Part shown: one piece after another, positions 20,882-56,666 of the stretch
How the letters are laid out: each line of letters begins with the position of its first letter
Position numbering within the stretch: position 1 is the stretch's first letter
Origin: Arthonia radiata
Taxonomy: Eukaryota > Ascomycota > Arthoniomycetes > Arthoniales > Arthoniaceae
Assembly: GCA_002989075.1 (NCBI GenBank)
Contig: PSQN01000017.1
Span: forward strand, 2,797,453 to 2,861,452
Reading direction: 5' to 3'
DNA: 64,000 nt
Translations under genes and position numbers: made by a program
Notes under the pieces: generated by a model
What the model saw: the letters and a program-made list of their open reading frames with translations, nothing else
Database searches by the model: none
What the model was told of the DNA's origin: nothing

Positions 20882-20949
20882 CTTTTACGGATCGCCTTAA
20901 GCAACTAACAAACTAAGGTATGTACTTCTATTCTTATAACTAACTTATT

Positions 20950-26999: not shown

Positions 27000-27676
27000 T
27001 GTTAAGACGCACGCACGAACTAACTAATAATTAAACAGAAGCACGTTCTTTTATGTACGTTATACAGAATTATATAATAGAGCAAAGGTTACGTAATATA
27101 ACTGTAAGGAACGTAGCGTTACTAGCGTTACTAACTGTATACGACGTAGCGTTACTAGCGTTACTAACCGTATGCGACGTAGCGTCGCTAGCGGTCCCCG
27201 ACACAGCCGACGCAGCGGTAGCAGCGGTTACTATAAACTATATAGCAAGGATAGATATCTACCTTAGTAGATAGATATCCGTAAATTTAGATTTAGAATT
27301 AGTATTATCGTTTAATATTAACTCTAAGGTATTGAACCTAATTAGTTTATCTTGCTGTAACGCAACTAGTAAGCTACGAGCGACTCTCGTAAGTATTGGC
27401 GCGAGGCAGGACTTTATAGCTACGACGGCGTGCGAATAGAGCGACCGTGTCCTAAGAGAGCTTTCCTATGCGGTCTTAGTACATCTCCTAGCTTATTTAT
27501 ATTACCGACTGAGTCCTTCGTTTAAAGACTTATAGTTTGTCTCTTGCTTCCTTAACCTCCTCTTCCGAGTTAAATACCTAGACAATAGACCCGGCCTTAG
27601 TCTCCCTTGTCTTGGTTAGATTACCCTTGGCATAGAATAAGACCAAGCAAAGCGGTTACGGCCGCCCGGCGTTACA
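27000..27676 (+). repeat. 3' LTR of the 20.2-27.7 kb chromovirus
   Basis: 677 bp, starts TGTTAAGACGCACGCAC and ends GGCGTTACA. The 33 bp tandem units recur at 27,115-27,195. Differences from the 5' LTR appear to be mostly transitions. A 73-codon open frame over the tandem units is a by-product of a repeat length divisible by three. Confidence 0.9.
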
Positions 27677-27681
27677 TATTC

Positions 27682-27886
27682 TTAAAATATTGTGTGTTCG
27701 ACGTGTTTCTTATCGTTAAGGTAGTATAATTGTTAGCTGAGAGTATCTACTCTATCGTTCTTAGAACCTTTCTTATAGATAATAATAAAGTTGTACGGAG
27801 CTATAGTTTCTAACTATCGAACTTATCTTTAGTTAAGTTTCTTTATTGTAATAAAGTAGGTTAGATTTTTATAGTTTATATATACT
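27682..27886 (-). pseudogene. Gypsy A RNase H-region fragment
   Basis: Continues Gypsy A directly after the chromovirus and matches 47,390-47,600 of the LTR-B Gypsy. It ends abruptly at ATACT, where an LTR-B begins. Confidence 0.7.
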
Positions 27887-28336
27887 TGTAACGCCGATCG
27901 CTGGGAGAACCAAACTAAGGCTTACTTGCCTTATATGCTTATCGACCTTAATAGTAGGTATCTTGTGTGCTAGAGACTAAAAGATAGGAGAGATAAGACA
28001 GATTATAGAAGGTAAGAGAGGCTTAACTAGAGTAGATAGAAGATAAAGTATATTACTTAAATATAGTTAAGAAACTTATATTTAGATATTAAGTTAACAG
28101 ACTAAAGTTTATTCTAAGGTTAGCTATTAGTTTAGCTATATAGTTTAAGGTACAAAGATATATTTCTCTGTATTTAACGGTCTCAACACTTTCTTTATCG
28201 TATAATCGGAATTCTATTGCGATATAGCGACGTTGCTAACGTCGCTATATTGAAGTCGTCGGGTATACTATATAATGCTCTAATAAGGCTAGCTGCGCTT
28301 AGCTCTATACTAGCCTAATATAGTAAGATCGTAATA
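27887..28336 (-). repeat. LTR-B, minus orientation, with 24 bp of adjoining internal sequence
   Basis: A 450 bp LTR (TGTAACGCC...GATCGTAATA), followed at 28,337-28,360 by the first 24 bp of the 3' internal end of the same family (compare 45,163 onwards). The rest of that element is missing, and a plus-oriented LTR-B begins at 28,361. It is therefore a truncated insertion, head to head with the next element. Confidence 0.82.
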
Positions 28337-28360
28337 TAAGGTCTCCTCTTCAAGGCTAGT

Positions 28361-28558
28361 TGTTACGATCTTACTACATTAAGCTAGTACAAGGCTGAGC
28401 GTAGCTAGCCTTATTGAAGCATTATACAGTATACCCGACGACTTTAATATAGCGACGTCGGCAACGTCGCTATATTGTATAAGATACCTACTACTAAGGT
28501 TAATAAGTATATAAGGTAAGTAAGCCTTAGTTCGGTTCTCCTAGCGACCGGCGTTATA
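28361..28558 (+). repeat. Internally deleted 5' LTR-B of element I
   Basis: 198 bp. It starts TGTTACGATC and ends GCGTTATA, but jumps from the U3 hairpin region straight to the last about 90 bases. Compared with 34,949-35,398, a block of 252 bp is missing. Confidence 0.82.
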
Positions 28559-28564
28559 CTTTAA

Positions 28565-31500
28565 TAAACTCGCTATAAAAGTAGAGAAAGTAGATTAGTT
28601 ATATCTACTACTTTGGTATCTAATAGCCGCAACGCTACGGATAGGTTAGCCAATAGAATAGCTAGTACGAGTAAGATATTAAACGTTAACACTAAGACAG
28701 AAAAAAGCTTCTTAGATAAACGTTTTAAAGTTACTTTATTCTTAATACGCCTAGTCGTATACTTTAAAACTTATAAAGACTAGTTTCTAAACGATACTAC
28801 TATAGTTCTATTTGCTACCTCTTATATAGATAGAGATACCTACAAGTAAGTTAAATACTACCTTAACGACTTCTTATTTACTCTAATAAAGAGTAGGCGC
28901 AAGGATACCGATAAGTTCTTTGCTAGCTTTACCTTCTTTTAGAAGAAGCTTCGTAAGATCTTTAAATAGATCAACGCTAAACGCGTCGCTATTAGGAAGC
29001 TTAGGAACCTTAAGTATATAGGACTAGCAAGCAGGTATACCGCCGAATTTATATAGTATGCTAATTAAATAGAATAGAACAAGAAACCCCTTATTAAGAC
29101 CTTTTATAAGGAACTTAAGAACTATATTAAGAAAATAATCTATATCTATAGAAAGAAGTTTAATAACCTCGACAGCTTTATATAGCGAGCAAAGGAGATT
29201 AACAATAGTAACTTTAAAAGATAAATAGAAAAGAAAGGTAACTCTACTAATAAGTTCTATAGAACAAAGAATTAAGCAAACTTACAATAAGACCGAGGCG
29301 ATCTAATAGAGTTAAATTTTATAAAGCCTCAAGAGAAACTAAACAATTAAAAACGAGAATATAGAATAAAGAACAAGCTATGCTTATATTATAGAAAACT
29401 AGAACATTAAGTTAAAGAATACCGTTTCAAGAAACAATAGTTTAATAGTACCGGTAGAAATAGACACAACAATCGATCTTAGAAACCCTATTCTCTACAA
29501 TAATAGTTTAATATAACTATCTAGACAAAAGAGAACAATAGTCGCAATAAGGCAATAAAACTACTAGCAGCCTTCTCCGACCGCTAGTAGAAGGACTCAA
29601 CCGAGGGTTATCTTCTTTAAGAATTAGATTTCCTACAGAAGACTATTTAGAACTAGTATAAGTATATTACTAGACTAACTAAGAAGCAGAAGGATATCTA
29701 CTAGAATACCTTCTATAACTAGAAAAATACTCACTAGGTTTTATTTAACGAGAAGTATAACGAGCAGAACTTATTTAACTTATATAAAAACTAAGACACA
29801 GACATCGAGTTATAGGAAGAGATAAAGGAACGACAAATAAAAAAGGAACAACGAAATCTATAGAACTAGAACAACATTAACCGTACTATTCCGAGGTAGT
29901 AGATATAAGATACCGTTATATTATATAAAACACTATTCTAGACTACGTACTATAATAATAATTGCACGATTTATAAATTTAATAAACTAGAATTAAGATA
30001 ATGACCGAGGAAACCGACATCTCTAAAACAAGATTTAATATAAAAACTAGGCCTTACCTGAGAACGACCTAGGTTACCTTACTTAGAAACTTAAGGGGAA
30101 TTTAAGGAAGAATAGACTATAGAAGCTAAGTAAGATAGCAGCTACGATACGTTATAGGCAAGACAACGACTTAAAGACAAAAATATAGATTCTAATAGTA
30201 CAGAATCCTCTCTTAAGGACAATATTAACTAGAAAGAGCAAACCCTAATTCGTTAGAAAGAAATAATATAGAGACTTTGTTAGTTAGCCTTTTATAAGGG
30301 AAAGTTAAGCACTAATAAAGAGATTAACGATATTCTAAGATATATTTACTTACGCCTACAACGACTAGTAGACTACCTTATTAGGGATCTAGATTTATAT
30401 AGTTAATATTAATATCTTTAATTAACAATATATAACCTATAAATACAACAAGTTTTAATTAGCGATAGTTATATAATTAAAGTAGAGATCGTAAATAATA
30501 AACTAGACGTTATAATAAAAGTAGTACTAGAACACCTTATACAGGAATTCTTATAGCAAATTAACCGATAATAGGTTTCAATATCTAAAATACTCTAGAA
30601 CGTATATAATTAACAGAAAAAAGACTAGACCGACTACTTTAAGGGCAGTAGTACCGGCCCGTTCAACGGTTAAACCCTCTAGAAGTTTAGCTCTATACGA
30701 GCTTAGCTGCTTATAGAACATATTTATATACTCGAGCAACAATAAACTACAGAAATATTAAAATTATAATCGATTTAAGCGTAATAGGTAACTTTATCTC
30801 AATACGCTACGTTAAGAAGTACCAGATATAAACATAAAAGAAGAAATTACCCTACGTACTGTCTAGATTCTAAGGGACAGAGGAAAGAGTCAACTACAAG
30901 ACTTTACCAATAAATATAACAATTAAAGACTATTAGGAAGAAATTACTTATAATATTGTAAATATTAACTAGTACTATGTCGTACTAAGTATACTCTAGT
31001 TGCAACAATATAATTTAGAAGTAAATTAAAGAACTAAGAAGCTCCTCTTTACTAGGTATAAGCACTCTAAACAAGAGTCGTTCTGCAGAACAAATACTCT
31101 ATAAGCTATTTTTAGTAGTAAAAATAAAGAGCGCAATAAAGAACTTATATAGGTTAGTACTACTATACTCCGACATTTAGATATCTTACGAGAGAAGTCT
31201 AACGTAGTATCTTGTCTATAGCTAACTATACGTAAATATAAACAAAAAACAACTACACGCTAACGATTCTATACGACAACAAGTACTTAGTTAATTACTA
31301 AGATACTAGAGGAATACAATTAGTTCCGATATCTATTCAAGGAAGCTAAGCCAAACTCAGCTCTCCTAGAATACAAACTGTAGGATTATACGATACCTTT
31401 ATAAGAAGATAAAACGCTAACATTCGGTCTAATATACTCTCTATTAGAAGCAGAAAATTAAGCACTCCGCGACTATCTTAACGAGAACCTTAAGAAAGAA

Positions 31501-34180
31501 TTTATTTAAAAATTAATATTACTAGCCGAATACCCGATACTCTTCGTACTAAAGAAGAATAGCAAACTACAACTTTATATAAATTATAGACAATTAAACA
31601 GAGTAACTATTAAAAACCGATACCCTTTACTATATATCGACGAAATAACAGATCGATTGTATAACGCGCAATAGTTTACTAAGTTTAACCTATAAGGGGC
31701 CTACAACCTAATTCGTATAAAGGAAGGCGAAGAATAAAAAACAGCCTTCTATACTAGACACAGACTTTTTAAGTATTGCGTTATACCCTTTAAACTAATA
31801 AACGTACCAGCATTATTTTAAAAACTAATTAACAACACACTTAACAATTACCTAGATATATTTATAACTGCTTATCTAAACGATATTCTAATATATAGCT
31901 GTATACTAGAAGAACATAAGAAATATATTAAGAAGGTATTAAAAAGATTAGCGTGTACCGATTTACAAATTAATATTAAGAAAACCTAGTTTTATTAACA
32001 ATCCGTTGAATTTCTTAGATTTATAATTACCGAGCACGGTCTCTAAATAGAAGATTCGAAGATCTAATTCGTTCTAACCTAGCCTATACTAAAGAATATA
32101 AAATAATTGCAACAGTTTCTTAGTTTTGTTAACTACTATAGGCGATAAATATCTAACTTTAGTTGAATTATAGCACCGCTGTCTCAACAGACAAAATAAT
32201 CGATAGAATTTTTTTAGACATAGAAAGAACAATTAGTATTTAAAGAGCTTAAGGAAGCTTTTAAGATTAGGCCTGTACTAGCAATATTCGACCCTAACCT
32301 ACCGATTATTATAGAAATAGACGCGTTAGACTATATAATTGGAGTATATATAAGTTAAAACAATAAGGAAGGAAAGCTTAGATTAGTAGCTTTCTACTTA
32401 AGAAAAATATTACTTACAGAATAGAACTACAATATTTATAATAAAGAGCTTTTAGCTATTATAGCAGTATTTGAAATATAGCGAGCTTATCTAGAAAAAG
32501 CAAACTATACAATTATAGTATATATAGACTATAAGAACCTAACTTATTTTACGACAACAAAGAAACTTAACTACAGATAAGTTAAATAGTTAGAGACTAT
32601 AGCTCTATACGACTTTATTATTACCTACAAGAAGGGTTTTAAGAACAATAAAGCCGACGCTCTAAGCCGACGACTAGATTACCTTAATAACAAGGAACAC
32701 GTTAAATACGCAATATTCTAAGAATACAATAACGAGATTAGATACAATTAATTAGCTATAACAACCGAGTTTGTTATTAAACTAGATAGCCGAATCCTAG
32801 ATATCCTGAACGATTCTAAAACCTACTAGGAAAACGAGAAACGATACCTAGTACTAACTAAAAACGATAAGGGCTATTATAAATTTTAAGGCAAAATCTA
32901 CGTTCCGAGGAATCTAATCCGATATATTATTAGTAACTTCTACGATAATTTAACGAAGAGACATAAGAGTATCAATAATACTATTAAAAAGATTATACGA
33001 ACCTACTATATCCCGAGAATCCAACACTACGTTGAAAATTATATCTAAGAATATAATATATACGCAAGAACTAAGCACACAAGGCATTTACTATACAGTA
33101 AACTACAACTACTAGAAATATCCGAGAGACTATAGCATATAGTCTTACTAAACTTTATTACTAAGTTACTAATATCTAAGGATCTACTCATAGAAGTAGT
33201 AAACAACGTTATTCTAGTTATATGCGATAAACTAACAAAATACGCGTACTTTGTATCTTACAAAGAAGCTAGCAATTTAGAACAATTAGTATATATATTC
33301 CTTCGGATTATCCTAGCAAACTATAGTTAACCGCAAAGAATTGTCTTAAACAGAGACAGAAAATTTGTTTTACGATTTTAAACATCCCTAATGCAATAGC
33401 TAGAGACAAAACAAAAAATATTAACGTTATTCTATCTATAAACAAACAGACAGACAGAACAAATAAATTAAACACTAAAACAGTATCTCTGAGCATACAT
33501 TAACTACCAACAGAACGACTAGGTACAATTACTACTAGTAGCGTAAGTAGTATACAACGATATTAAAAACGATACAACTAAAACGACACCGTTTTATACC
33601 TTATACAGCTATTACCCTCTTTAAAGTAGATAACTACAAAACAATACAGAGAACGATACTACTACGCGAATAGCAACGAATATAAAGACCCTATACTAGT
33701 AGTTAAAAGCTAACAGCGAGTTTATTAACAAATAAACAAGGAAATAGTATAATAAGTTAAGAACTACCCTAAATACAAGCATAAAAGAGAGGGGAAGAGC
33801 TTACTTACTTATAAGAAACATAAAAACTATTAGACTAAGCAAGAAACTTAACTATACTAAGACAGAACCGTTTAAAATCTTACAGCAATTAGGATTCGTA
33901 ACATTTAAACTTAAACTCTTAAAAACAATAAAAATATATTCTATATTCTATATAGCGCTATTAAAGCTAGCCTACTTCTAAGAGGTAGAACGATCTAACC
34001 CAGAAATCCTTTCTAACAACTAAGAACCTAAGTATAAGGTTAAAACGGTTCGAGCTTATAGACAATATCGAGGCAAACGACAGTAGCTTATAAAATAGAA
34101 AGGATATTCTAAATATAAAAATTAATAAGAACCGAAACGAAACCTAACTAACTATAAAGACACTATTCAACGATATTAGA
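28565..34180 (+). pseudogene. Degraded gag-pol of LTR-B element I
   Basis: Gag from about 28,600, with a ruined zinc knuckle near 29,385-29,430. Protease-like sequence lies near 30,760. Reverse transcriptase at 31,540-31,900 shows 'QLYINYRQLNRVTIKNRYPL' and catalytic YLND at 31,873-31,884 instead of YLDD. RNase H is around 32,310-32,540, integrase about 32,880-33,700, and a chromodomain at 34,024-34,140 has stops at Trp positions. Every domain contains in-frame stops. The 62-codon minus-strand frame at 33,308-33,496 is antisense to integrase and is not a gene. Confidence 0.82.
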
Positions 34181-34948
34181 ACTAGAGTATTAGTCGGTCG
34201 TAGTAGTACTAATACCCTAATCTACTATCTAGTACGCCTCGCCGGTATCTAAGTTACCTATAAACGAACCAGCCTACTATGTTAGTAGTCTACTACCTAA
34301 CTCTAAAAATAGATTGTTACGAAAATCTATACTTAGGCTACTTAGTATATCTACAATATTACTATTAGATATAGCCGCTAGCTATTCTTCCTCAAACAAT
34401 ACGTTATTCTAATCTATTTTGTTCTGCGTCTAGATACGCAACCTTTCGAGCTCTTTCTCTAAATCTACTACTACCGCTTTAATAGCTTTGCGCTACCTTT
34501 TTGCCGTACAAATAACTTTCTTTTTTTACGCTAAACGCTTACGTTGCCTTTAAAGGGTATCTAACACCTATAAGTACTAAGAACGGATACTCTGAGCTAA
34601 AAATTAAGTTAGACTAATATAAAAAATAAACGTAAGATAAAAACTAACTATCTTTTAACGACGAATAAACGTTATACAACTTCTTATTATAAGTATACAC
34701 AAAATACGATACCTTCCCAAACTTTAGAATATACTTCTTATCTAGATAAGAGCAATAGGAATACAGAAGCATCTCTCGACTATAAACTTTAGTAAGAATA
34801 GTATTAATCTTAAGCGCTTTATTAGCGTTAAGAGCCTTCTTAACTTTAAATATAACGACTTACAGAACTAGATCTACTATAGAGCAACAACGAGGTTTTA
34901 ATGTTTCTAAGGCCGTTAAGGACAACTAGCCTTAAAGAGGGGACTTTA

Positions 34949-35398
34949 TATTACAATCTTACTATATTAAGCTAGTACAAGGCTAAGCGCAGCTAGCCTT
35001 ATTAAAGTATTATACAGTATACCCGACGACTCCGATACAGCGACGTTAGCAACGTCGCTACATCGTAATAGGATCCCAACTACGCGACAAAGAGATTATC
35101 GGGACTATCGGATATAGAGAAACATACCTATATATCTTAAACTATATAGCTAAACTAATAACTAACTTTAAAATAAACTTTAGTCTGTTAACTTAATATT
35201 TAAATATAAGTTTCTTAACTATATTTAAGTAACGTACTTTACCTTCTATCTACTTTAGTTAAGCCCCTCTTACCCTCTATAATCTATTTTGCCTCTCCTA
35301 TCTTTTAGTCTCTAGCATACAAGATACCTACTACTAAGGTTAATAAGCATACAAGGTAAGTAAGCCTTAGTTTGGTTCTCCTAGCAACCGGCGTTACA
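34949..35398 (+). repeat. 3' LTR-B of element I
   Basis: 450 bp, begins TATTACAATC (expected TGTTAC) and ends GGCGTTACA. It is preceded by a polypurine tract AAAGAGGGGACTTT. It carries the U3 inverted repeat near 35,035-35,065. Confidence 0.88.
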
Positions 35399-37253
35399 CT
35401 AAAGTAAGATACCTGCTATTATAAAGTCTAATGCGTTAGTTATTAAAACGATTAATAGTATCGAGTTAAAGTACGTTAGTACTAGTATATTTATAAAGAC
35501 TTGCTTTAGCGCTTTAAAAGCTTTTTGTTAGGCTTTGCCCTAGACAAACTTAATGTCTTTCGTTAGTACGTTTATTAGTACTACGATGCGGCTAAATCTA
35601 TAAATAAATCGCTGGTAGAAGTTTATAAATTCTAGGAAGAACAGAATCTGCTTTACGGTAGTAGAGACTAGCTATTTAGCTATAGTCTGTACCCTTTTTA
35701 GATCTATTTTGATACTATCGACTCTTATAGTAAACTCTAGGAAAGAAACCTTAGTAATGTAAAATTAATACTTAGACAGCTTTATAAATAAACTCTATTT
35801 ATAGAGCCTTTGTAGGACTTCTTTAATATAGCCTTTATAGCTTTCCTTGTCTTTAGAGAAAATTAAGATATTGTCTATATAAACAATATACACAGTATTA
35901 ATAAGATTACCTATAGCTTTATAGATATATACCTAGAACGTAGTAGAGGCGTTTGCTAGTTTAAAAGGTATTACTAAGTATTTATAGTGCCCGTATCGGG
36001 TATAAAACGCTGTCTTCTACTTATTCTCTTTACAGATATAGATACGGTAATAGGTATTATAAAGATTAAGCTTCGTAAATACTTTCGAGCCTTATAAGTA
36101 ATTAAGAATCTTAGAGACTAGCAGCAATACGTAGCGATTCTTTATAGTTACATTGTTTAAACCGCGGTAGTTAACATATAGTCTCAACAATCTATCTACC
36201 TTAAGCACAAATAGAACTAAGATACCCGTTAGACTAGTAGAGGATTGTATCTATTCTTTCTTAATTATAGTATTTAGATACTTTCGGAGTATCTTTAGCT
36301 TATTCTATAATATAGAGTAGATTAGCTTATATAGAGGTTCTATACTATCCTTAAGCTTAATCTTATAAGTATACTTACTAAGCGGCGCAAGCTTACTCAA
36401 CAGTTCTTTAGAAAAGATATCTTTATATTTAGTATACTGAGGAGGAAGCTTATCTCGCTTTTCTACTTTCTTAGGCTCGCTATCTGTAGTCCGGTCTAGC
36501 GGCGAACTAACGTCTAATAGGACCGCTATTTAATACTTATAACGTCTATCTACTCTTATCTATAGGATTGCAGAGTAGTACTGTTCGCCTCTTTATAAAT
36601 ATACTAAAATTACGTCTTTATTAACAATCTTAATAGATTTAGCTTCTGCTACCCGTTCTTTAGGCATAGAGAGGTTTCTCCAAGCAATTATTTTTATTGT
36701 CTAGCTAATCTAGGGCTTAACTTACTTAAGCTATAGGTATTTTAAGACGAGGCTGTATTCTATAAAGTTAGCCGAATATAGGTAGAGTTAGCAATACCGT
36801 TTCTTTCTATATACGTCTCTTACGGTTATATTTACGTTATAAGCGCTGTAGAGCTACAGCTTATTTTTATTAAGAAACTTAGTATATAGAAGCTTTACTT
36901 TATATAATTTTTGCTATCCTCTTTTAAGTACAATACGATAATTAATAAGATTAATCTCTGTACTAGAATCTACTAGCGCGAGGATCTCTTGCGGCGACCT
37001 ATCTAGCTGTACCGAGACTTTAATTTATCCTTACCGTTAATCGATAGCCCTAAGCTTTAGAGACGCGAGACTTACTCTTAGGGCCTATTGTTTTTTTGCC
37101 CAACTAGCGTCGAATTAATACTAATTTAGAGCGTAGTATATTTAGTAGTATAATACCCTTTCTAATTGTATATAAAGTAGATAATATTTATTTTACTATA
37201 TATCGACTTTAATTGCCTCTATACGGTAGAGCTATTGTCTCTTTATTAGACTG

Positions 37254-37510
37254 TATAAGAGTACTGAGCTAGAGTTTCTACTATTCTTCTATAAATAAGA
37301 CTTACGATAAGGAACAACTATCTACAAGCGCTGCGCGCTCTTTAAATATCTAAGCTCGAGGTAAGAGTGCTTAATTGGGCCTAGTACGTACATCTCTATG
37401 GTTAATTATAATTTACCGCGTCGAGACTAGCGCGGCGTAGGAAATATTAGCGCAGGCCCGAGCTTTCTGTTTCGACTCCGTTTCAACTCATTTAGCTTGT
37501 AATCCTTACA
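37254..37510 (-). repeat. 3' LTR of Gypsy IV
   Basis: 257 bp, starts TATAAGAGTAC (expected TGTAAGAG) and ends AATCCTTACA. It is a direct match to 42,850-43,106 with transition differences. It contains a small GC-rich palindrome, GCGCTGCGCGC, near 37,329. Confidence 0.88.
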
Positions 37511-40500
37511 TTACCCCCCCCCTTCTCTCAGTCCGACGAGCATCTGCGAGCGGCTGTAATTTTTAAGGTCCTAGCTTCGTTAGGTATCGATTGTAAAAGT
37601 CGGATTTCTTCTCTATAGTCTTATTAAGATTCTATTACGGCTGCTATATAGGTACGTTGTAACTAGTCCATTTTACAAGGTATTTAAGACGGCGCTATCG
37701 GTGTCGAAAGTCCTTAATTAATTAAATCTTATATTCAGAAACACTATTTAATGCGATATTAATAAATTTAAGTTCCGATAAAAGTTAACTAGGGAAAGGA
37801 TTGTCTAATGCCGGGTAGATTCGTTTAACATAGAACGTATTATCGATCTTAGTTCCCGATAGTAGCTAAAGTTTAACATTAAGCGGGCTAAGCACTTGTA
37901 TAATCCGGAAGGGGCCTTCCCGCAGATAATCGAGCTTTTTGGTAGAACGCTCTTTACGTAGGTTCTAGACATTTAAGAAGACTATATCGCCTACCTTGTA
38001 TACTGGAGCTGGTCGGCGATATCGGTTAGCATACTCCGTTTGGTAGGCCTGAGCGAACTCAATAGCTTTCTTATAGTCTTCGTGTACCTTCTTTATATCT
38101 CTTGCAAACTAGAAAGTGTTGCGGAGTTCTGCAGTCTGTGTCTCCGGGGTGTCGAGGAAGCGAGGGTGGTAACCGAGTATAGCGAAGTAAGAGGTGTATT
38201 CGGTGCTAGTATTAATGTAGTTATTGATATAGAACTCGGCGATAGAAAGGTAACGGGCCCAGTTGTCTTACTGATTGTTAATATAGTAACGTAGGTATTG
38301 TCTTAGAACCTTATTTACTCTTTTAGTCTGGTTATCTGTCTCTGAATAGTATACTGTTAACAACTTATGCTTAATACCGAGAGATTTGCAGAGTCGTTTC
38401 TAAAAGTTTGCTAGAAAGGTTCTTTCTTAGTTTAACGTTAAGGAGTCTAGAAGCTCTACTAAGCGGAAGACATAATTTATAAACGCTTCGGCTATAGAGA
38501 AGGAGCCTATGTCTGTTATTAGTATAAGAAAGACTCTCTTAGTTAGTCTATTTACTATCTATAGGATCTGTTTGTATATCTATCCTCTATAGATACTCTT
38601 CTGGAATGGGCCGATAAAGTCGAGGGTTAGATAGTAGAATACATTCTAGGATACCGGAAGGGAGTACAGGAGTTTAGGTAGCTTTGCTGTCGAAAAGTTG
38701 TTACGAGCACACTAAACACAGCCTTTACAGTAATAGTAAGTGTCCTTATACATTAAGGGCTAAAAGTAGCTTCTTCTAAGCAATCCGAAGAGAGCTATAT
38801 CTCCTCTGTGGCCGTAGATCGGGGCGTTATAGTATAGCTAAAGTAACTTAATACGGATTAGCTTAGGGACGTAGTACTTGTTATAGTAGGTAAAGCCGTT
38901 CTCTATTAGAGCACACTAAGCTAGTTTAAAGACTATATTACTTCGATGGCTGTCTCGCAGGGCTTTCTTAATTCTCTAAGTCGTTTCGTTACTCTAGTAT
39001 GTCTCTTTTTACGGGAGCGATTCTCCGATTAAGAATTAATTTAAATTCAACTCGGGCAGAGCATCAACTAAACGGAGGATCTGGTGGGGCTTAATTACTT
39101 GCTGCTAGCGGTAGCGGATACGTTCGTCTTGGTCTAACTGGAGCCGGTCGGCTAAGATCCGGGTAAGTGCGTCTAACTTTGTGTTCTTTACTTCGGAACG
39201 GTAGTCGATCTTAAAGTTGAAGTTTAATAGAAACTTACTTCAGCGCGCTTAACGGGGATTAAGCTGCTTCGTTGTCGTAAAGTACTTAAGATTCTTATAG
39301 TCAGTAACTATACGAATCGGTGTCTCTACCGATTAAAGCTTGTAGTTCTATTCTTTAAAAGCCTGAACGATAGCGAGAAGCTCTTTGTTATAGATCTCGT
39401 AGTTATACTGAGCTGGAATTATCTTGCAAGATATAAAGGCTACTAGTCGAAGTACTCCTTTCTTGTTATACTAAGAGAATACTGCGGCCGTTATATAGTC
39501 CGATAAGTCTATCTCGATGACTGTTTCTGCCGAGAGGTTAAAGTAGGCAAGGAAACCTCCTTCTCTAAAACGTTGCTTAATCCGGACGAATGCGACCTAG
39601 TACTCTTCTATTTAGCTAAAGGTCTTGTCTTTCTTTATAAGGTCGGTAAGTAGACGGGCGATCTTTAAGAACTTAAGAATAAACCGTCGATAAAAGTTTA
39701 CGAAGCCGAGAAAACATTAAACGTCCTTTACATTGTACAGAAAGGATTAGCTAAGGACTGCTTCTATCTTTTAAGGGTCTATTTTAATACCGTCGGTGCT
39801 AATAATAAGGCCTAGGTACTTTACCTCTTAAGTCTTAAACTCGTATTTACTAATATCTACCTGAAGACCGAATTTACGGAGGTGGGCTAATACTTTTCGA
39901 ACGTATTCTCAGTGTTTCTTAAGAGTATTGCTGTAAATAAGTATATTATCTATGTACGCCGTACAGTACTAATCTAGTATTTCTTATAGAGCGTCGTTAA
40001 TATATGCTTAAAACGAGGCTGGTCCGTTATATAGACCAAACGAGAGAACGTTAAACTTAAAGAGTCTATAGCGAGTATAGAAGGCTGTTTTCTACTTATT
40101 AGCTTCCTTAATATAAAGCTTGTTGAAGGCTAATATAATGTCTAGCTTTATATAGTACTTAGCCTATAACAGGCGGTCTAGAGTTTTAGAAATTAGCGGG
40201 AGCGGGTAACGGTTCTTAACTATAACTAAGTTAAGTTCTCGATAATTTATACAGAAGCGGAGGTCTCTATTAGCTTTCTTAACGAAGAGAATGGGCGCGG
40301 CGGCTGGTAAGCGAGACAATTAAATAAAGCCGTTAGACAGATTCTTTTCGAGGTAGCTTCAGAGAGCAGTAAGTTATTTTCTGTTTATTAGGTACATCTT
40401 CTTACTCGGTAGCTCTATACCGGGATGCAAGTTAATAGCGTAGTCTTTTTCTAGACGTCTAGGTAAAAGCGTGTTGGTAAGTTTTTAGTTGAAGACGTTT

Positions 40501-42849
40501 AAGTACTCTCGATACTGTAGCGGGAGGTATTCTTGGGGATCGGTATCTTTAGGTACTACTATAGCTACATTTCCTATGCGTATAGTTCTTGACTAACGAG
40601 GCTAGAGGTCTAGTTTAAGAGCTTAGTTTAAGGATCTTATACTAAGGGAAAAGAACTTAGAGCCTTTTATACGGGCTAATTGGTAAAATCCGATTTCTTT
40701 TAACTAAACAGGGTTCTTGAGTTTAGTACGACGAGTCTTAGGTTCTAAACGACGGTTCTGTGGCTTAGAGAGGGAAGGCGGTCTCTTCTGGTAGTAGGGT
40801 ACTGTAGCCTCAAACTCGTAGTGTCCCTACTAAATATAGTGTTCTTTAAAGGTAATCTTGTTGTTCTCGAAAGACGAACGAAGCTAATGTTTCTTTATCT
40901 AAGGTAGACCGAGAACGAGAGGCTACTTAGCATTAAGAATTATATATGCCGCGAGGGTTTCCTTGTGCCTACTTATGCTAAGAGGAAGCATAGCAGTATA
41001 AGTAACGCGAGAGGATATCTTGTCGTTGAAGGTAATAATGTTAATAGACTTAGGTAGAGGACGGATAACGGAGTGTGTTAATTATATAAGAGAAGAGTCG
41101 ATAAAGGCTATACCGGAAGCACTAGTATCGAGCAGAGCTTTGATTAGTTTGCTATTTACTAAGGAGTTTACGAATATATATCGGTTCGCGTTAAGATTCT
41201 GTTAGTACTCTAAACTAATGTTTCTAACGAGTCTTTTAAACTCTTTCTCTTGTTCCGGTCTCTGGCGGCGACTTTAGCTAGAGACTACTCTTTTAACTAA
41301 TCCTAATACTCGGAGGCTAGGGCAACTAAGAACTAAAGCGGATATTTCTGATCGGAGGACTCTAACGGGGACTAAGCTCTAAAGAGGCGGTTCTGGCGCT
41401 AAAGGTTGAGAGGGCACTAAGCACGGTAGTGTCTAGTTTAATTACAGGCAAGGCAGGCGTTTCGAGAGATACGAGCTTGACAGGCTTGGTCGGTAAGCTT
41501 GCTATTTGGGCCTCGCTCGTGGGAAGTAGCTTTCTTATCTACGTTTATACGTAAAGTATTCGGAGCGGTAGACGGAGACGCTTGGAACGGGCGGAGCGGC
41601 GGAGACGTAAAGACCGACGAAGGTGCTGACGGAGGACTAAACAGCGAAGAACGGAACGAATAAGATTCTGAGCTGAATTAGGGTAAGTTCTGAGTCTAAT
41701 TCTAAATCTGGGTTGACTAGTTCTAGTTCTGGTTCGGAGTACGGGTTGTCGGAGCATAGACTTTCTTAATTTCGTACTCTTACTGGACTATAACATTCTT
41801 CTTCCGGTAGAACGTAATATAGCCGTAATACGTATCGGAGAGATTTACTGCTATACGTAGGAACCGAAGTTCTTTACTAACTGCCCTATTAAGGATAGGT
41901 ACTAAGAACTGACGCTAATCTATAAATTAAGATAATTCGGTAGTTTCTTTAAACTCGCGGATAAAGGCACTAAAAGGGGTATTCTTCTAACAAAGCTTAT
42001 AAAGTTAGATGTTTGCTTTCTCTCTACGATCGGGGTTATTAAAATAGTAGGCGAGCTTTTCCTAGAACTGAGACATCGAGAAAATAACGGGTTTGGCGGA
42101 GGTATCGTCGTAGTTCGAGAATTTATACGACATACGGCGGGCGGTATCGTTTATAAGACGGAAATAGGTATATACTATCTAATCCGCTTCTGCTCGGAAG
42201 TGGTCTGCATTGGCTTAGAGTTTGTTTATTATACGGGCTTAGAAGACTTTAAGGTTCTCTGGAGTACCATTGTACTGGTCTAAATCTAGGACTTTGGCTG
42301 AACGGCTAGGAGACTGACGGGTACTAAGACTCTAAAGGGCTTAAATAAGGGCTAAAGTATCTAAAGAAGGCTGTTAGTTCTGTTGTGCGCCTGCTCCTTT
42401 TTAAGCGGCTGCCTGATTTAAACGGGCAATTCCTAACTAAAGGACCGAGAAGGCATAAGAGAGGTGCGTCTGTACTATACAGACAAAGATAGCTTAGTTA
42501 TTAAGGTATTCTAGGGTTTACTAATCTGAAGGCAAAAGACTAAAAGAACTGGATGCTAAGGACGGGTCGTTACCTTGTTTTGCTATACTGAATTCTAGCT
42601 AAGGCAATAGGATTTAGGTTGTTAGTTGGATAACTGAAGACTGACTAAAGACGGACTGGGGACGGAGGCGTAAGACTAAGTTAATAATCTCCTAACGGAC
42701 GATCTTCCTGAAGGTCTGGTTGTTCTGTAAGATGCTCGGTAACGACGGCGCGTTCTTATACTCGAGACTAACTAAATTCTAAAACTAAAGCTAACATAAA
42801 GACTGTGTTTAAATTGGCGGTAACAATAAAGAGGAACGATTGCAAGTAA

Positions 42850-43106
42850 TATAAGAGTACTGAGTTAGAGTTTCTACTATTCTTCTATAAACAAGACTTG
42901 CGATAAGAAACAACTATCTACGAGCGCTGCGCGCTCTCTAAATATTTAGGCTCGAGGTAAGAGTGCTTAATTGGGCCTAGTGCGTGCATCTCTTTGACCA
43001 ATTATAATTTACTGCGTCGAGACTAGCGCGGCGTAGAAAATATTAGCGCGGGCCCGAGCTTTCCGTTCCGACTCCGTTCCGACTCATCTAGCTTATAATC
43101 CTTATA
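42850..43106 (-). repeat. 5' LTR of Gypsy IV
   Basis: 257 bp, starts TATAAGAGTAC and ends AATCCTTATA. Partner of 37,254-37,510 with identical length. Confidence 0.88.
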
Positions 43107-44418
43107 GACCGGTAAGTTGCCTCGTTCTCGGTATAAACCGCCTCGTCCGCGGCCCGACCTCTATAGAGATGCTCTAGCGTTATAGCTACTATAATTTATA
43201 TTCGATCCGCTATCGAAGCAATTTCGATTTATATTAGTATTGCGGGCGTTCTACGATATACTATAATTAATATTTATATATTAACAAACTTTTTTTAGAA
43301 GCTTGTTTATATCTTTAAGTAGGTTCTTTAAGAGACCTTATTTAATTAGCTTTACCTTAATTTATAAAGATAAGCGCGTATAGTAGAATGCAGTCCAATT
43401 TAGGTCCGGTATCTTGCTATTTAGCAACTTAGTTTCTTTATTCTGTAGAAAGCTTAGAAAGTCCTTAAGCTTCTACGTCGAACTCTACGTTAATATAAAG
43501 AACCTTTTTACGTTAGCTATAGTAGCTATAGCTAGGTTAACGATATATTCTATTATCTATTCTTTAAAGTATATTTATACGTAGAGCGACGTCTTTTCTT
43601 TGTTCTCTTCGGCGTAAGTTTGCTACCTATCTGCTAGGTCTCTAGAAAGTTTCTAGACGTACTAAATAATAATATAAACGTTGTCGGAATCTAAGACGTT
43701 AGCTATCTAAAATCTTTTCTTAATGGTTTAAGTCTATTAAGTGCTCGTAGAGCTTATAGCTCTCTTAAGCTTAGACGTCTTTTTTTTAAGAAGCTCGTTA
43801 ATCTAGCTTTAAAGGCTTAAATTGCTCTATAGCCGCTTACTACTAGCCTTTAAATTGCAAACAGACTGAAGCTTAACTTCGAGTATTTGCTTTTTAAGCT
43901 TAAGCTTTTTAATAGTATACTGCTACTGCTATGCTAGTAGTTCTTGTTTCAGCTTTCGTATTTTAACGCTTAAGAAGGCGCTAAAGAGGAATTCTTCGCG
44001 GTTAGAGCCTTAATAGGCCTCTTCGTCGTTGTTATTGTTTTAATTTAAACTATTATTCTTTCTAGTTTGCGATCTGCTCGGCGTCTGTTTACCGGCTTAT
44101 AAGCCCTCTTGCTTATTATCGTCGTTAAATCTTATATAAGGGTTCTAGTCTTCTTTAACGTTAACTATATTTTGCTACGCTCTGTATTTTACTTGTACGG
44201 CGGATATAAAGCGACTACCGTTGCGTACTTAGTTTCTTACTTGTTCTCTTTGAATACAGTACTTGCTAGTACCGACCATCAATTAATTTTAATATTATTT
44301 ATTTTAACGTATATACGGAGTCTCGGCTATACTCGATTATACCGGGTTAACCTCTAAGCGACGTCGATAAGGTATCTGACTGCCGGCCGCCCTCCTTGTA
44401 GGTTTAAAATAATTAGAA

Positions 44419-44614
44419 TATAATCTAGATATAGAGCAGAAAGTAGTTAGATAGCAAAAAGGATCTAAATAGGCTCTATTAGTGTTTAAGCTAATTATTA
44501 AGAAGACTAGAAAGGAATACGTCTACTAGAGGAAAGATATTCTCCTAGAATCGTAGCCTTTTTAAATAGACAATATTCTGTCTTAATCCGCTATTAGAAC
44601 ATTTATACATTATA
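44419..44614 (-). repeat. 5' LTR of chromovirus W (inverted)
   Basis: 196 bp. Its reverse complement matches 56,466-56,661, and the flank AGTTT (44,615-44,619) is the reverse complement of AAACT at 56,662-56,666. Together these mark the target duplication of W after an inversion. Confidence 0.88.
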
Positions 44615-44619
44615 AGTTT

Positions 44620-44712
44620 AATAGAACTAAATAAAGCGGATACAACAATAATCAACCTTAGAAACTCTACTCGCTACAATAATAGTTCAATATAACTATT
44701 TACTAAGTATAG
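44620..44712 (+). pseudogene. Inverted fragment of Gypsy A (zinc-knuckle region)
   Basis: 93 bp matching about 29,440-29,525 of LTR-B element I in plus orientation. When reversed and joined across one AAACT to 56,667, it restores a sequence like 50,655-50,690 of element II. It is therefore the missing neighbour of the Gypsy A gag piece and part of the inverted block. Confidence 0.78.
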
Positions 44713-45162
44713 TGTAACGCCGGTCGCTGGGAGAACCAAACTAAGGCTTACTTACCTTGTGTGCTTATTGACCTTAATAGTAGGTATCTTGTATACTAGA
44801 GACTAAAAGGCAGGAGAGGCGAGATAGATTATAGAGAGTAAGAGGGGCTTAACTAAAGTAGATAGAAGGTAAAGTACGTTACCTAAATATAGTTAAGAAA
44901 CTTATATTTAGATATTAAGTTAATAGACTAAAGTCTATTTTAAAGTTAGTTATTAGTCTAGCTATATAGTCTAAGGTATATAGATATGTTTCTCTGTGTC
45001 TAACGGTCTTAACAATCTCTTTGTCGTATAGTTAGGATTTTATTGCGATATAGCGACGTTGCTAACGTCGCTATATCGAAGTCGTTGGGTATACTATATA
45101 ATGCTTTAATAAGGCTAGCTGCACCTAGCCTTGTACTAGCTTAATATAGTAAGATTGTAATA
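44713..45162 (-). repeat. 3' LTR-B of element II
   Basis: 450 bp, TGTAACGCC...GATTGTAATA. Contains a perfect 15 bp stem inverted repeat at 45,046-45,060 and 45,064-45,078 with a 3 base loop. Internal sequence with a polypurine-complement CTCTTCTTT follows. Confidence 0.88.
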
Positions 45163-48100
45163 TAAGGTCTCTTCTTTAAGGCTAGTCGTCCTTAACGGCT
45201 CTAGAGACATTAAAACCTTGTTATTGCTCTGTAGTAGATTTAGTTCTATAAGTTATTATACTTAAAGTTAAGAAAGCTTTTAACGCTAATAAAGCGCTTA
45301 AGATTAATACTATTCTTGCTAAAGTCTATAGTTAAAAGATGTCTCTGTATTTCTGTTACTCTTATCTAGATAAGAAGTGTGTTCTAAAGTCTAGGAAGGT
45401 ATTGTATTTTGTGTATACTTGTAACAAGAAGTTATATAACGTTCGTTTATCGTTAAAGGACGGTTAGTTCTTATCTTACGTTTATTTTTTATATTAGTTT
45501 AACTTATTTTTAGCTTAAAGTATCCGTTTTTAGTACTTATAGGTATTAAATGCCCTTTAAAGGCAATATAAGCGTTTAGCGTAAAAGAAGGAAGTCGTTT
45601 ATACAGCAAAAAGGTAGCGCGAAGCTATTAAAGCGGTAGTAATAGATTTAGAGAAAGAGCTTAAAAGATTGTGTATCTAAGCGTAGAACAAAATAGATTA
45701 AAATAACGTATTGTTCGAGAAAGAATAGCTGGCGGCTATATCTAGTAGTAATATCGTAAATATACTAAGTAGCCTAAGTATAGATTTTTGTAATAATCTG
45801 TTTCTAGAGTTAGGTAGTAGGCTACTAATATAGTAGACTAGTTCGTTTATAGATAACCTAAGTATTAGCGAGGCGCACTAGATAGTAGATTAGGGTATTA
45901 GTGCTGCTATAACCGACTAATACTCTAGTTTTAATATCGTTAAATAGTATCTTTGTAGTTAGTTAGGTTTCGTTTTGGTTTCTATTAATTTTTATGTTTA
46001 GAGTATTCTTTCTATTTTATAAGATACTATCGTTTACCTTAATATTGTCTATAAGCTTAAACCGTTTTAACCTTATACTTAGGTTCTTAGTTGTTAGAAA
46101 GGATTTCTAGGTCAGGTCGTTCTACCTCTTAAAAGTAGACTAGCTTTAATAGCGCTATATAGAATATAGAATATATTTTTATTGTTTTTAAGAGTTTAAG
46201 TTTAAATGTTACGGATCTTAATTGCTGTAAGATTTTAAACGGTTCTATCTTAGTATAGTTAAGTTTCTTACTTAATCTAATAGTTTTTATATTTCTTATA
46301 AGCAAGTAAGCTCTTTCCCCCTCTTTTATACTTATATTTAGGATAGTTCTTAACTTATTATATTATTTTCTTGTTTGTTTGTTAATAAACTCGCTGTTAG
46401 CTTTTAACTGCTGGTATAGGGTCTTTATATTCGTTGCTATTCGCGTAGTAGTGTCGTTCTCTGTATTGTTTTGTAGTTGTCTATCTTAAAGAGAGTAATA
46501 GCCGTATAAGGCATAGAATAGTATCGTTTTAGTTATATCGTTTTTAATATTGTTGTGTGCTGCTTACGCTACTAGTAGTAATTATACTTAGTCGTTCTGC
46601 TAGTAGTTAATATATGCCCAGAGATACTATTCTAGTGTTTAATTTGTTTGTTCTGTCTGTCTGTCTGTCTGTAAATAGAATAACGTTAATATTTTTTGTT
46701 TTGTCTTTAGCTGTTGTATTAGAGATATCTAAAATTGTAAGACAAATTTTCTGTCTCTATTTAAGACAATTCTTTGCGGTTAACTATAGTTTGCTAGGAT
46801 AATTTGAAGGAATATATATACTAATTGTTCTAAATTGCTAGCTTCTTTATAAGATACAAAGTACGCGTATTTTGTTAGTTTATTGTATATAACTAGAATA
46901 GCGTTGTATACTACTTTTGTAAGTAGATCCTTGAATATTAGTAACTTAGTAATAAAGTTTAGTAAGACTGTATACTATAGTCTCTTGGGTATTTCTAGTA
47001 ATTATAGTTTACCGTATAGTAAATACCTTGCGTGCTTAGTTTTTACGTATATATTATATTCTCGGATATAATTTTCGACGTAATGTTAGATTCTCGGGAT
47101 ATAGTAGGTTCGTATAATCTTTTTAATAGTATTATCGATACCCTTGTGTCCCTTCGTTAGGTTATTGTGAAAGTTACTAATAATGTATCGGATTAGATTC
47201 CTCGGAACATAGATTTTATCTTAAAATTTATAATAGCTCTTATTATTTTTAGTTAGTGCTAGGTATCGTTTCTCGTTTTTCTAGTAGGTTTTAGAATCGT
47301 TTAGGATGTCTAGGATTTAGCTGTTCGGTTCGATAATAAACTCGGTTGTTATAGTTAATTAATTATATCTAATCTTATTATTGTATTCTTAAAATATTGC
47401 GTGTTCGACGTGTTCCTTATTATTAAAGTAATCTAGTCGTCGACTTAGAGCGTCGGCTCTATTGTTCTTAGAACCCTTCTTATAGATAATAATAAAGTTG
47501 TATAAAGCTATAGTCTCTAACTATCTAACTTATTTGCGGTTAAGTTTCTTTGTTGTCGTAAAATAAGTTAGATTCTTATAGTTTATATATACTATAATTA
47601 TATAGTTTACTCCTTCTAAATAAGCTTGCTATGTTTTGAATGCTGCTATAATAGCTAAAAGCTCTTTATTGTAAATATCGTAGTTCTATTCTGTAGGTAA
47701 TATTTTTCTTAAGTAGAAAGCTACTGGTCTAAGCTTTCCTTCCTTGTTATTTTAACTTATATATACTTTAATTGTATAGTCTAACGCGTCTATTTCTATA
47801 ATAATCGGCAGGTTAGGGTCGAATATTGCTAGTATAGGCTCGATCTTAAAAGCTTCCTTAAGCTCTTTAAATACTAATTGTTCTTTTTACGTTCAGAAAA
47901 ATTCTGTCGATTGTTTTATCTATTAAGACAGTGATGCTGTAATTCGGCCAAAGTTGAATATCTATCGCCTGTAGTAGTTAATAAAACTAAGAAACTGTTG
48001 CAATTGTTTTATATTCTTTAGTATAGGTTAGATTAAAACGGATTAGATCTTCGAATCTTTTATTTAAAGACTATGCTCGGTAATTATAAATCTAAGAAAT

Positions 48101-51100
48101 TCGACAGATTGTTGATAAAACTAGGTTTTCTTAATATCGATTCGTAAATCGGTACGCGCTAATCTTTCTAATACCTTCTTAATATATTTTTTATATTCTT
48201 CTAGTGTACGGCTATATACTAGGATATCGTTTAGATAAGCAGTTATAAATATATCTAAGTAATCGCTAAGTATATTGTTAATTAGTTTCTAAAATAATGC
48301 TAGTACGTTTATTAGCCCAAAGAGTATAACGCAATACTTAAAAAGTCTGTATCTAGTACAGAAGGCTGTTTTTTATTCTTCGCCTTCCTTTATACAGATT
48401 AGATTATAGGCCCCTCGTAGGTTAAACTTAGTAAACTATTGCGCGTTATACAATCGGTCTGTTATTTCGTTAATACGTAGTAAAGAGTATTAATTTTTAA
48501 TAGTTACTCTGTTTAATTGTCTATAATCTATGTAAAGTCGTAGTTTACTATTCTTCTTTAGTACGAAGAGTATCGGGTATATGGCTAGTAATGTTAATTT
48601 TCGGATAAATTCTTTTTTAAGGTTCTTATTAAGATAGTCGCAGAGTACTTAATTTTCTGCTTCTAATAGAGAGTATATTAGACCGAATATTGGCGTTTTG
48701 CCTTCTTGTAAAGGTATCGTATAATCCTACGGTTTGTATTCTAAGAGAGCTGAGTTTAGCTTAGCTTTCTTAAATAGATATCGGAACTAATTATATTTCT
48801 CTAGTATCTTAGTAATTAACTGAGTACTTGTCGTCGTATAGAATCGTTGACGTACAGTCGTTTCTTGTTTATATCTGCGTATAGTTAGCTATAGACAAGA
48901 TACTACGTTATACTTCTCTTGTAGAATATTTAAATATTGAAGTATAGTAGTACTAACCCGTATAAGTTCTTTATCGCGCTCTTTATTCTTACTACTAAAA
49001 ATAGCTTATAGAGTATCTATTTCGTAGAACGACTCTTATTTAGAGTACTTATATCTAGTAAAGAGAAGCTTCTTAGTTCTCTAATCTACTTCTAAATTAT
49101 ATTGTTATAACTAGAGTATACCTAGTATAGTATAGTGCTGGTTAATATTTACGATATTATAAGTAATTTCTTCCTAATAGTCTTTAATTGTTATATCTAT
49201 TGGTAAAGTCTTGTAGTCGACTCTTCCTTCTACTCCTTAGAATTTAGATAGTGTGTAGGGTAATTTCTTCTTTCGTATTTATATCTGACACTCCTTAACG
49301 TAGCGTATTAAGATAAAGTTACCTATTGCGTCTAAATTAATTATAATTTTAATGTTCCTATAGTTTATTGTTATCCGAGTATGTAGGTATATTCTATAGG
49401 TAGCCGAGCTCGTATAGAGCTAGACTCCTAGAGGGTCTAACCGTTGGACGGGCCGGTACTACTACCCTCGAAGTAGTTGACTTAGTCTTTTTCCTGTTAA
49501 TTGTATACGTTCTAAAGTATTTTAGGTATCGGAACCTATTATCGGTTAATTTGCTATAAGAATTCCTATATAAAGTGTTCTAATACTGCTTTTATTATAA
49601 CGTCTAGTTTATTGTTTATAATCTCTGCTTTAATTATACAACTATTGCTAGTTAAAACTTATTGTGTCTATAGATTGTATATTGTTAATTAAAGATATTA
49701 ATACTAACTACGTAAATCTAGACCTCTAATAAGGTAGTCTACTAGTTGTTGTAGGTGTAAGTAAATATATTCTAGAATATTGTTAATCTCTTTATTAGTG
49801 CTTAACTTTCCCTCGTAGAAGGCTAACTAATAAAGTCTCTATATTATTCCTTCCCAACGGATTAGAGTTTGCTCTTTCTAGTTAATATCGTTCTCGAGAG
49901 AGGATTCTATACTATTAGAATCTATATTTTTGTCTTTAAGTCGTTGTCTTGCCTATAACGCATCGTAGCTACTATCTTGCTTAGCTTTTATAGTCTATTC
50001 TTTCTTAGATTCCCCTTAGGTTTTTAGATAAGGTAACCTAGATCGTTCTCGGATAAGGCCTAGTTTTTGTGTTAAACCTTGTTTTAGAGATATCGGTTTC
50101 CTCGGCCACTATCTTAATTCTAGTTTGTTAGATTTATAAATCGTACAATCGTTATTGTAACACGCAGTCTAGAATAGTATTTTATATAGTGCAACGGTAT
50201 CTTATATCTACTGCCTCGGAATACTGCGGTTAATATTGTTTCAGTTCTATAGATTTTATTGTTCCTTTTTTATTTGTCGTTTCTTTATCTCTTTCTATAA
50301 CTCGATGTCTGTATCCTAGTTTTTATATAAGTTAAACAAGTTCTGCTCGTTGTGCTCCTCGTTAGACGAAACCTAGTGAGTATTTTTCTAGTTACAGAAG
50401 GTATTTCAGTAGATATCCTTCTACTCCTTAGTTAGTCTAATAATATACTTATACTAGTTCTAGATAGTCTTCTATAGGAGACCCAATTCTTAAAGAAGAC
50501 AACCCTCGGTCGGGTCCTTCTACTAGCGGTTAGAGAAGGCTGCTAGTAGTTTTATTGCCTTATCGCGACTATTGTTCTCTTTTGTCTAGATAGTTATATT
50601 AAACTATTGTCGTAGAGAATAGGGTTTCTAAGATCGATTGTTGTGCCCGTTTCTGTTAGTACTGTTAAACTGTTGTTTCTTAGAACGGTATTCTTTAACT
50701 TAATGTCCTAGTTTTCTGTAATATAAGTATAGCTTGTTCTTTATTCTGTATTCTTGTTCCTGGTTGTTTAGTTTTCCTTGAGGCTTTATAAAATCTAACT
50801 CTATTGAATCGCCTCGGTCTTATCGTAAGTTTGCTCGATTCTTTGTTTTATAGAATCTATTAGTGAGGTTACCTTTCTTTTCTATTTATCTTTTAAAGTT
50901 GCTGTCGTCGATCTCCTTTGCTCGCTGTATAAAGCTATCGAGGTCGTTAAACTTCTCTTTACGGATATAAATTATTTCCTTAATATAGTCCTTAAGTCCC
51001 TCGTAAAAGGTCTTAATAAGGGATTTCTCGTTCTATTCTATTTAATTAGTATACTATATAAATTCGGCGGTATATCTGCTTACTAGTTCTATCTACTTAA

Positions 51101-51551
51101 GGTTCCTAAGCTTTCTAGTAGCGACGCGTCTAGCGTCGATCTGTTTAAAGATCTTACGGAGCTTCTTCTAAAAGAAGGTAAAGCTAGCGAAGAACTTATC
51201 GGTATCCTCGCGTCTACTCTTTATTAGAGTAAATAAGAAGTTGTTAAGGTAGTATTTAACCTACTTGTAGGTATCTCTGTCTATATAAGAGGTAGCGAAT
51301 AGAACTATAGTAGTGTCGTTCAAAAACTAGTCTTTATAAGTTCTAAAGTATACGACTAGGCGTATTAAGAATAAAGTAACTTTAGAACGTTTATTTAAGA
51401 AGCTTTTTCTTATCTTAATATTGACGTCTGATATCTTACTCGTACTAGCTATTCTATTAGCTAACCTATCTACAGCGTCGCGGCTATTGGGTGTCGAAGT
51501 AGTAGATATAACTAATTTACTTTCTCTACTTTTGTAGCGAGTCTATTAAAG
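45163..51551 (-). pseudogene. Degraded gag-pol of LTR-B element II
   Basis: Same domain order as element I, read on the minus strand: gag 51,500-50,700, zinc knuckle near 50,735-50,690 with Cys changed to Tyr and a stop, protease near 49,380, reverse transcriptase 48,600-48,200, RNase H 47,850-47,590, integrase 47,270-46,300, then a chromodomain-side tail toward 45,800. Stops interrupt all domains. The plus-strand frame at 46,614-46,802 mirrors the antisense frame of element I and is not a gene. Confidence 0.8.
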
Positions 51552-52001
51552 TATAACGCCGGTCGCTGGAAGAACCAAACTAAGGCTTACTTACCTTATA
51601 TGCTTATCGACCTTAGTAGTAGGTGTCTTGTGTGCTAGAGACTAAAAGGTAGGAGAGGCAAGACAGATTATAGAGAGTAAGAGAAGCTTAACTAAAGTAG
51701 ACAGAAGATAAAGTACGTTATCTAAATATAGTTAAGAAACTTGTATTTAAATATTAAATTAATAGACTAAAGTTTATTCTAAAGTTAGTTATTAGTCTAG
51801 CTATATAGTCTAAGGTATATAAGTATGTTTCTCTATGTCCGACGGTCTCGACAATCCCTTTGTCGCGTAGTTGAGATTCTATTGCGATGTAGCGACGTTA
51901 CCAACGTTGCTATATTAGAGTCGTCGGGTATACTATATAATACTCTAATGAGGCTAGCTGCGCTCAGCCTTGTACTAGCTTAATGTAGTAAGATCGTAAT
52001 A
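51552..52001 (-). repeat. 5' LTR-B of element II
   Basis: 450 bp, TATAACGCCGG...GATCGTAATA, partner of 44,713-45,162. It abuts TTTAG of element W. Confidence 0.87.
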
Positions 52002-56661: not shown

Positions 56662-56666
56662 AAACT

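Follow-up and report, generated by a model that had tools for sequence, protein, structure and literature searches.

How two copies of one LTR retrotransposon family came to lie in opposite orientations, each between flanks that fail to pair, is the question raised by this locus. The window (the whole 64,000-nucleotide stretch that was analysed, C1:2797453-2861452, from a genome of 33.5 Mb in 16 contigs, presumably that of a filamentous ascomycete) contains an AT-rich island at about 15.8-61.8 kb with strong RIP-type indices, and GC-rich DNA lies on both sides of it. The left GC-rich flank holds a Rad51-family gene fragment (10366-11166) near the island, adjoined by a fragment of a GH7 glycosyl hydrolase gene. 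A 96-bp inverted repeat (89%) is found at both island edges (15722-15817 and 61758-61853). A genome search gave no further copy of it beyond these two places and no clear target duplication was seen; the repeat could go back to an old inverted duplication, or its two copies could be terminal repeats of a DNA transposon, the outermost of the nest. The island itself is a nest of RIP-mutated LTR retrotransposons. The best overall explanation of this nest, to which a probability of roughly 0.8 is given, combines an inversion between two LTR-B elements, I and II, with an added LTR-B deletion.

The two LTR-B elements have the following parts, full-length LTRs of this family being 450 bp:

28361-35398, plus strand: element I, an LTR-B Gypsy element and presumed hybrid, from its termini, flanks and alignment to II
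28361-28558, plus strand: 5' LTR of I, with a 252-bp internal deletion
34949-35398, plus strand: 3' LTR of I, from its termini
44713-52001, minus strand: element II, an LTR-B Gypsy element and presumed reciprocal hybrid, from its termini and alignment to I
44713-45162, minus strand: 3' LTR of II, from its termini
51552-52001, minus strand: 5' LTR of II, from its termini

Elements I and II form an inverted repeat with arms of 6124 and 809 nt (89%). The left and right flanks are CTAGT and CTAAA for I, and TATAG and TTTAG for II; each read in its own orientation, I lies between CTAGT and CTAAA and II between CTAAA and CTATA, so that in neither element do the two flanks match. The preliminary description had presented them as inverted copies whose own flanks do not match, with the right flank of I (CTAAA) being the reverse complement of that of II (TTTAG), and both points are confirmed by the arms and the flank readings. 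Aligned over their full length, the two show 741 transitions, 6 transversions and 2 gaps, the 747 substitutions falling on about 7,040 aligned sites, roughly one in nine. Differences that are almost only transitions carry the signature of RIP, which has a RID-type methyltransferase and a sexual cycle among its requirements. Related to the available C sites, the transitions fall on 258 of 639 CpA, 192 of 946 CpG, 110 of 592 CpC and 181 of 2276 CpT, CpA being the favoured context. The reading frames of I are broken, and one of its two fragments searched against Pfam gave a match, to SH3_Tf2-1 alone (PF24626, E 2.8e-8; 33748-33978, near the 3' end). Four of the six stop-free TE fragments searched in this way were without a match.

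The DNA between I and II, and that to the right of II, belongs largely to a Gypsy-like element, W, which is split in two halves. The features that bear on its former continuity, including the target-site duplications (TSDs) of W and of a minus-strand LTR-B element (B) that W would have received, are these:

35399-44418, minus strand in the sense of W: left half of W, interrupted by N, from the genome search
52002-56465, plus strand in the sense of W: right half of W, from the genome search
44419-44614, minus strand: W LTR, inverted, from LTR alignment
56466-56661, plus strand: W LTR, from LTR alignment
44615-44619, plus strand: AGTTT, copy of the W TSD, from flank reading
56662-56666, plus strand: AAACT, copy of the W TSD and reverse complement of 44615-44619, from flank reading
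35399-35403, plus strand: CTAAA, one copy of the B TSD, in W, at the 5-bp position that separates the W halves in copies elsewhere
52002-52006, plus strand: TTTAG, the other copy of the B TSD and reverse complement of 35399-35403, from flank reading
37252-43104, no strand assigned: N, an LTR element nested in W, with LTRs of about 255 bp and its own TSD TAGAC intact (a control)

The pair of W LTRs (196 bp), inverted to each other, differs by 29 transitions and no transversions. The two halves of W were searched separately in the genome, taking the best 40 of 145 and of 141 candidates, 39 matches per list lying outside the window. When halves less than 60 bp apart on opposite query strands are taken as adjacent, W is found joined at no fewer than 19 places elsewhere among the matches listed. 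The spacing is exactly 5 bp at 15 of these 19 places and 13, 13, 13 and 6 bp at the other four, which also becomes 5 bp once a later alignment start in the query is allowed for. At one locus (L028), W runs from LTR to LTR uninterrupted, and the halves overlap by 5 bp at this site. Among the matches listed, 22 pairs have their halves within 25 kb of each other, the 19 adjacent pairs being joined by three with wider spacings of 8.6, 8.8 and 23.8 kb. The two members of every pair match opposite query strands, and none of the 22 shows the same-strand order seen in the window. The 20 unpaired matches in each list count neither for nor against an inversion. Two of the wider pairs, C9:2786602-2797134 (8.6 kb) and C10:1750483-1776291 (23.8 kb), may be interrupted, rearranged or merely neighbouring copies. 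As to coding content, the frame of W is shredded by RIP stops: the right half gave a weak RNase H match at 52007-52201 (PF17919, 19 bits, below the cut-off of 29.8), and the single fragment tried from the left half gave no Pfam hit. The preliminary reading that the frame of W breaks at one LTR-B element and resumes at the other on the opposite strand could thus be judged only weakly at the protein level.

The whole nest lies within a minus-strand Gypsy-A element, G, which provides a second record of continuity and pieces of which are found on both sides of the LTR-B elements:

17024-17499, minus strand: 3' LTR-A of G, with left flank CTTCT at 17019-17023
17624-18095, minus strand: solo LTR-A near the 3' end of G, with its own TSD CTACG intact (a control)
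20205-27676, no strand assigned: V, an LTR element nested in G, with LTRs of about 675 bp and its own TSD TATTC intact (a control)
27677-27886, minus strand: internal piece of G, ending at the insertion of element 0, from Gypsy-A comparison
27887-28360, minus strand: remnant of element 0, consisting of an LTR-B 3' LTR (27887-28336) and the end with the polypurine tract, truncated at CTAGT against the start of I
44620-44712, plus strand: internal piece of G, inverted relative to its continuation at 56667, from Gypsy-A joins elsewhere
56662-58016, minus strand: 5' end of G, an internal part with LTR-A at 57547-58016, and right flank CTTCT at 58017-58021
35399-44712, minus strand: inverted segment in its minimum extent, with the left half of W and N, a W LTR and the Gypsy-A piece

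The LTR pair of G shows 57 transitions, 1 transversion and 6 gap columns, and the solo LTR-A differs from the 5' LTR of G by 10 transversions. The outer flanks of G are both CTTCT, a weaker match than the other TSDs because CTTCT-like sequence abounds in the right flank. Since the ends of G stay at one place with matching flanks, a translocation is argued against. Sequences corresponding to 44615-44712 and 56662-57400 are adjacent (less than 80 bp apart) at 10 or more places elsewhere, a count of adjacent pairs among the 39 matches listed per piece outside the window, on opposite strands and each with a 5-bp overlap, which is the TSD of W. No same-strand Gypsy-A pair occurs within 3 kb among the matches listed. 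An indel at 44703-44712, where Gypsy-A copies elsewhere vary, was considered and set aside: by eye, the piece through 44712 aligns with some copies at the purine/pyrimidine level. Two further proposals, that the W LTRs are inverted to each other between AGTTT and AAACT, and that the Gypsy-A piece at 44,620-44,712 continues into 56,667 when reversed, are thus borne out, the former by LTR alignment and flank reading and the latter by the joins elsewhere.

Because W and G are each continuous in copies elsewhere, the segment 35399-44712 has been turned around with respect to the flank on its right. If there were no inversion, the W halves and the Gypsy-A pieces would have to derive from separate insertions in opposite orientations. 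The families are numerous, as the 145 and 141 first-look candidates for the W halves attest, but such an origin is hardly credible: the W halves stop at one and the same base, at the 5-bp site, and each of the two W LTRs and the two W halves occurs just once. As a feature of the assembly, the inversion is therefore practically certain. It is also very probably real in the genome. An assembler that crossed between the two repeats would flip the segment, and a false join at an inverted repeat predicts exactly this pattern; an artefact of this kind is nevertheless quite improbable on two indirect grounds, namely that reads should tell I and II apart at their present level of difference and that the sequence of the window contains no ambiguous base N.

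The TSDs tell how the inversion was made. On reversing 35399-44712, B acquires CTAAA/TTTAG and W acquires AAACT/AGTTT as exact 5-bp TSDs. The family was surveyed as a control, 40 of 772 LTR-B candidates being scored, from which 11 were fetched as long loci (L034-L044); a further 12 copies had a 5' LTR start in the list, and 10 of them were read at their two ends (L045-L064). Of these 21 copies, 12 were scored for TSDs, for eight one of the ends could not be located and L036 was set aside as a tandem. All 12 copies with both outer ends have TG..CA LTR ends (CA/TA after RIP) and a 5-bp TSD, which is exact in nine and within C/T or G/A changes in three. G, V, N and the solo LTR-A, the controls within the locus, likewise keep their own TSDs. 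Between different LTR-B copies, chance agreement is exact in 2 of 132 ordered pairs and extends to 6 of 132 at the purine/pyrimidine level; in view of these rates, one TSD match alone would be modest evidence, and it is the continuity of W and G that decides. Two survey loci are of separate interest. In L036 (C2:1117001-1125700), a polypurine tract precedes the 5' LTR of the LTR-B copy, which suggests two elements sharing one LTR. At L035/L037 (C11:2001001-2013300), a plus-strand LTR-B element is interrupted by a minus-strand one with the TSD CGTTG/CGTTA, which looks like an ordinary nested insertion rather than an inversion.

The locus thus combines homologous copies in opposite orientation, outside sequences that become contiguous on reversal and one exchanged pair of TSDs, and the inversion was quite probably made by recombination between LTR-B copies. 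The other pair of TSDs expected from such an exchange, the left flanks of I and II, does not match: CTAGT and CTATA are two transversions apart. RIP as the origin of this mismatch was ruled out, the differences being transversions. Hybrid-end events of aberrant retrotransposition or integration, in which the ends of two copies join two sites and so produce the inversion without any recombining of resident copies, could leave mismatched flanks such as this pair. An origin of this sort is very unlikely, given that the TSD of B is complete on both sides in the un-inverted order, so that B was probably an ordinary resident insertion before the flip.

In the recombination model, the left side of the locus calls for more than the flip. 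Element 0 is inserted in G after ATACT, and its minus-strand LTR-B remnant abuts I head to head. To the right of the un-inverted left element, G resumes at a different internal position; the missing part of G amounts to about 2.1 kb (by comparison with the Gypsy-A copy L033) to 2.9 kb (with the copies L031 and L032), and neither this part nor the rest of element 0 (LTR-B) was found in the window. From the CTAGT/CTATA mismatch and the missing sequence it follows that at least one more event is needed, and the unmatched second TSD pair sets the locus apart from a plain two-element exchange. The preliminary description had held that a single crossover between I and II explains everything. Its core stands, inasmuch as an inversion of 35399-44712 by I/II recombination restores the TSDs of B and W and agrees with uninterrupted W and Gypsy-A copies elsewhere; its completeness does not, with CTAGT/CTATA unmatched and part of G and the rest of element 0 missing.

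The additional event may be assigned, with moderate likelihood, to a deletion by direct LTR-B recombination, a step drawn from the unpaired flanks and the missing sequence. Alternatively, the left breakpoint might have been made by end joining or break-induced repair on LTR-B sequence, an event that would also have deleted the missing parts of G and element 0. The flip and the loss of 2.1-2.9 kb from G would then have a single cause, and the left side also has a head-to-head LTR palindrome and the 252-bp LTR deletion; still, I starts on the left precisely at the end of its LTR, as insertion predicts, and neither filler nor a ragged junction is seen there, which makes such a repair event unlikely. 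The palindrome (28222-28475) is made up by the LTR of element 0 facing, across 24 bp, the 5' LTR of I, and its instability may have caused the 252-bp deletion in the latter.

Under the favoured model of inversion plus LTR-B deletion, the minus-strand element G would first have received W, and W would have received the minus-strand element B, while LTR-B copies in plus orientation lay closer to the 3' end of G. One of these copies and B, inverted repeats of about 7 kb, would have undergone homologous recombination and flipped the intervening DNA, with the exchange presumably inside both elements, and I and II would be the two products of this exchange. Separately, an LTR-B copy inserted in element 0 at CTAGT would have recombined with a second one, inserted in G at CTATA and likewise on the plus strand, and the deletion between these direct copies would have taken out about 2.1-2.9 kb of G together with what remained of element 0; the mismatch of CTAGT and CTATA would be due to this deletion. 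The exchange would have taken place before RIP drove I and II about 11% apart.

As products of such an exchange, I and II are presumed to be reciprocal chimeras, which follows from the inversion model. They are the closest pair among 11 aligned sequences (I, II and nine other copies), with 0.9 transversions per kb; L037 comes next to either of them, at about 3 transversions per kb. A crossover point was sought by SNP windows along I and II with the nine other copies aligned, and none was mappable, because the parents are indistinguishable outside RIP-type sites; within the 11-sequence alignment, every one of the six I/II transversions is found in just one of the two elements and in no other copy. 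The 3' LTR of I and both LTRs of II differ from one another by transitions only, with zero transversions. Their pairing was discarded as evidence of inversion: with 48 transitions, the pair of the un-inverted order (II 5'/I 3') barely improves on the 51 between the LTRs now paired in II, and I 3'/II 3' (43) is the closest. The strand bias of RIP along W and I/II, taken as a clock for RIP versus inversion, revealed no tracts by eye. It is plausible that the exchange preceded the RIP divergence of I and II, since they now differ by about 11%.

Published work places RIP in the pre-meiotic cell and, for Podospora anserina, mentions premeiotic recombination beside it (PMC12543289). Going beyond what that work says, we tentatively connect the RIP phase with this locus: the deletion and the inversion might be linked LTR-B recombination events of the same short pre-meiotic phase as RIP, a doubtful but possible course, and RIP might then have frozen the structure by making the copies too unlike for further recombination. 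If this were true, the structure would keep flipping without RIP.

Ectopic recombination between retrotransposons in RIP-mutated DNA is of a known kind, of which the present locus provides a well-resolved example that includes a further rearrangement. In the account of Drosophila buzzatii inversion 2z3 consulted here, ectopic recombination of Galileo involved copies in opposite orientation at the breakpoints, with TSDs exchanged between them and chimeric copies (PMC2775673), and the present locus resembles it in the first two respects. According to that account, however, TSDs were exchanged at both breakpoints of 2z3, whereas one pair of two is exchanged here; both Galileo copies were reported as chimeric and non-inverted chromosomes were sequenced, whereas here chimerism is presumed from the inversion model and the un-inverted order is read from one assembly; and Galileo is a P-superfamily transposon with inverted terminal repeats, whereas I and II are LTR elements (PMC2775673). 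Unlike the 2z3 inversion, the flipped DNA here is about 9-24 kb of TE sequence. Another comparable case is that of Mycosphaerella fijiensis, for which 125 of 640 complete LTR elements were described as having differing 5' and 3' insertion sites, read as ectopic recombination (PMC3562529); this case too is fungal, mainly Gypsy, and accompanied by RIP. No recombination partner is named in the part of that survey dealing with these elements (PMC3562529), whereas here the partner was found and the ancestral order recovered. REANNOTATE, as its description puts it, treats rearranged elements as products of inter-element LTR recombination and proposes LTR phylogeny for their detection (PMC2672092); an LTR comparison in this style is uninformative here, RIP-type transitions making up nearly all of the differences.

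The flipped DNA appears to consist entirely of transposon sequence, and direct effects on the organism are therefore probably small. A single assembly is enough here to identify the partner element, reconstruct the ancestral order and recover two target sites, and further copies of the families serve as built-in controls. A RIP-mutated nested island can thus keep a readable order of insertions and rearrangements in spite of its broken reading frames.
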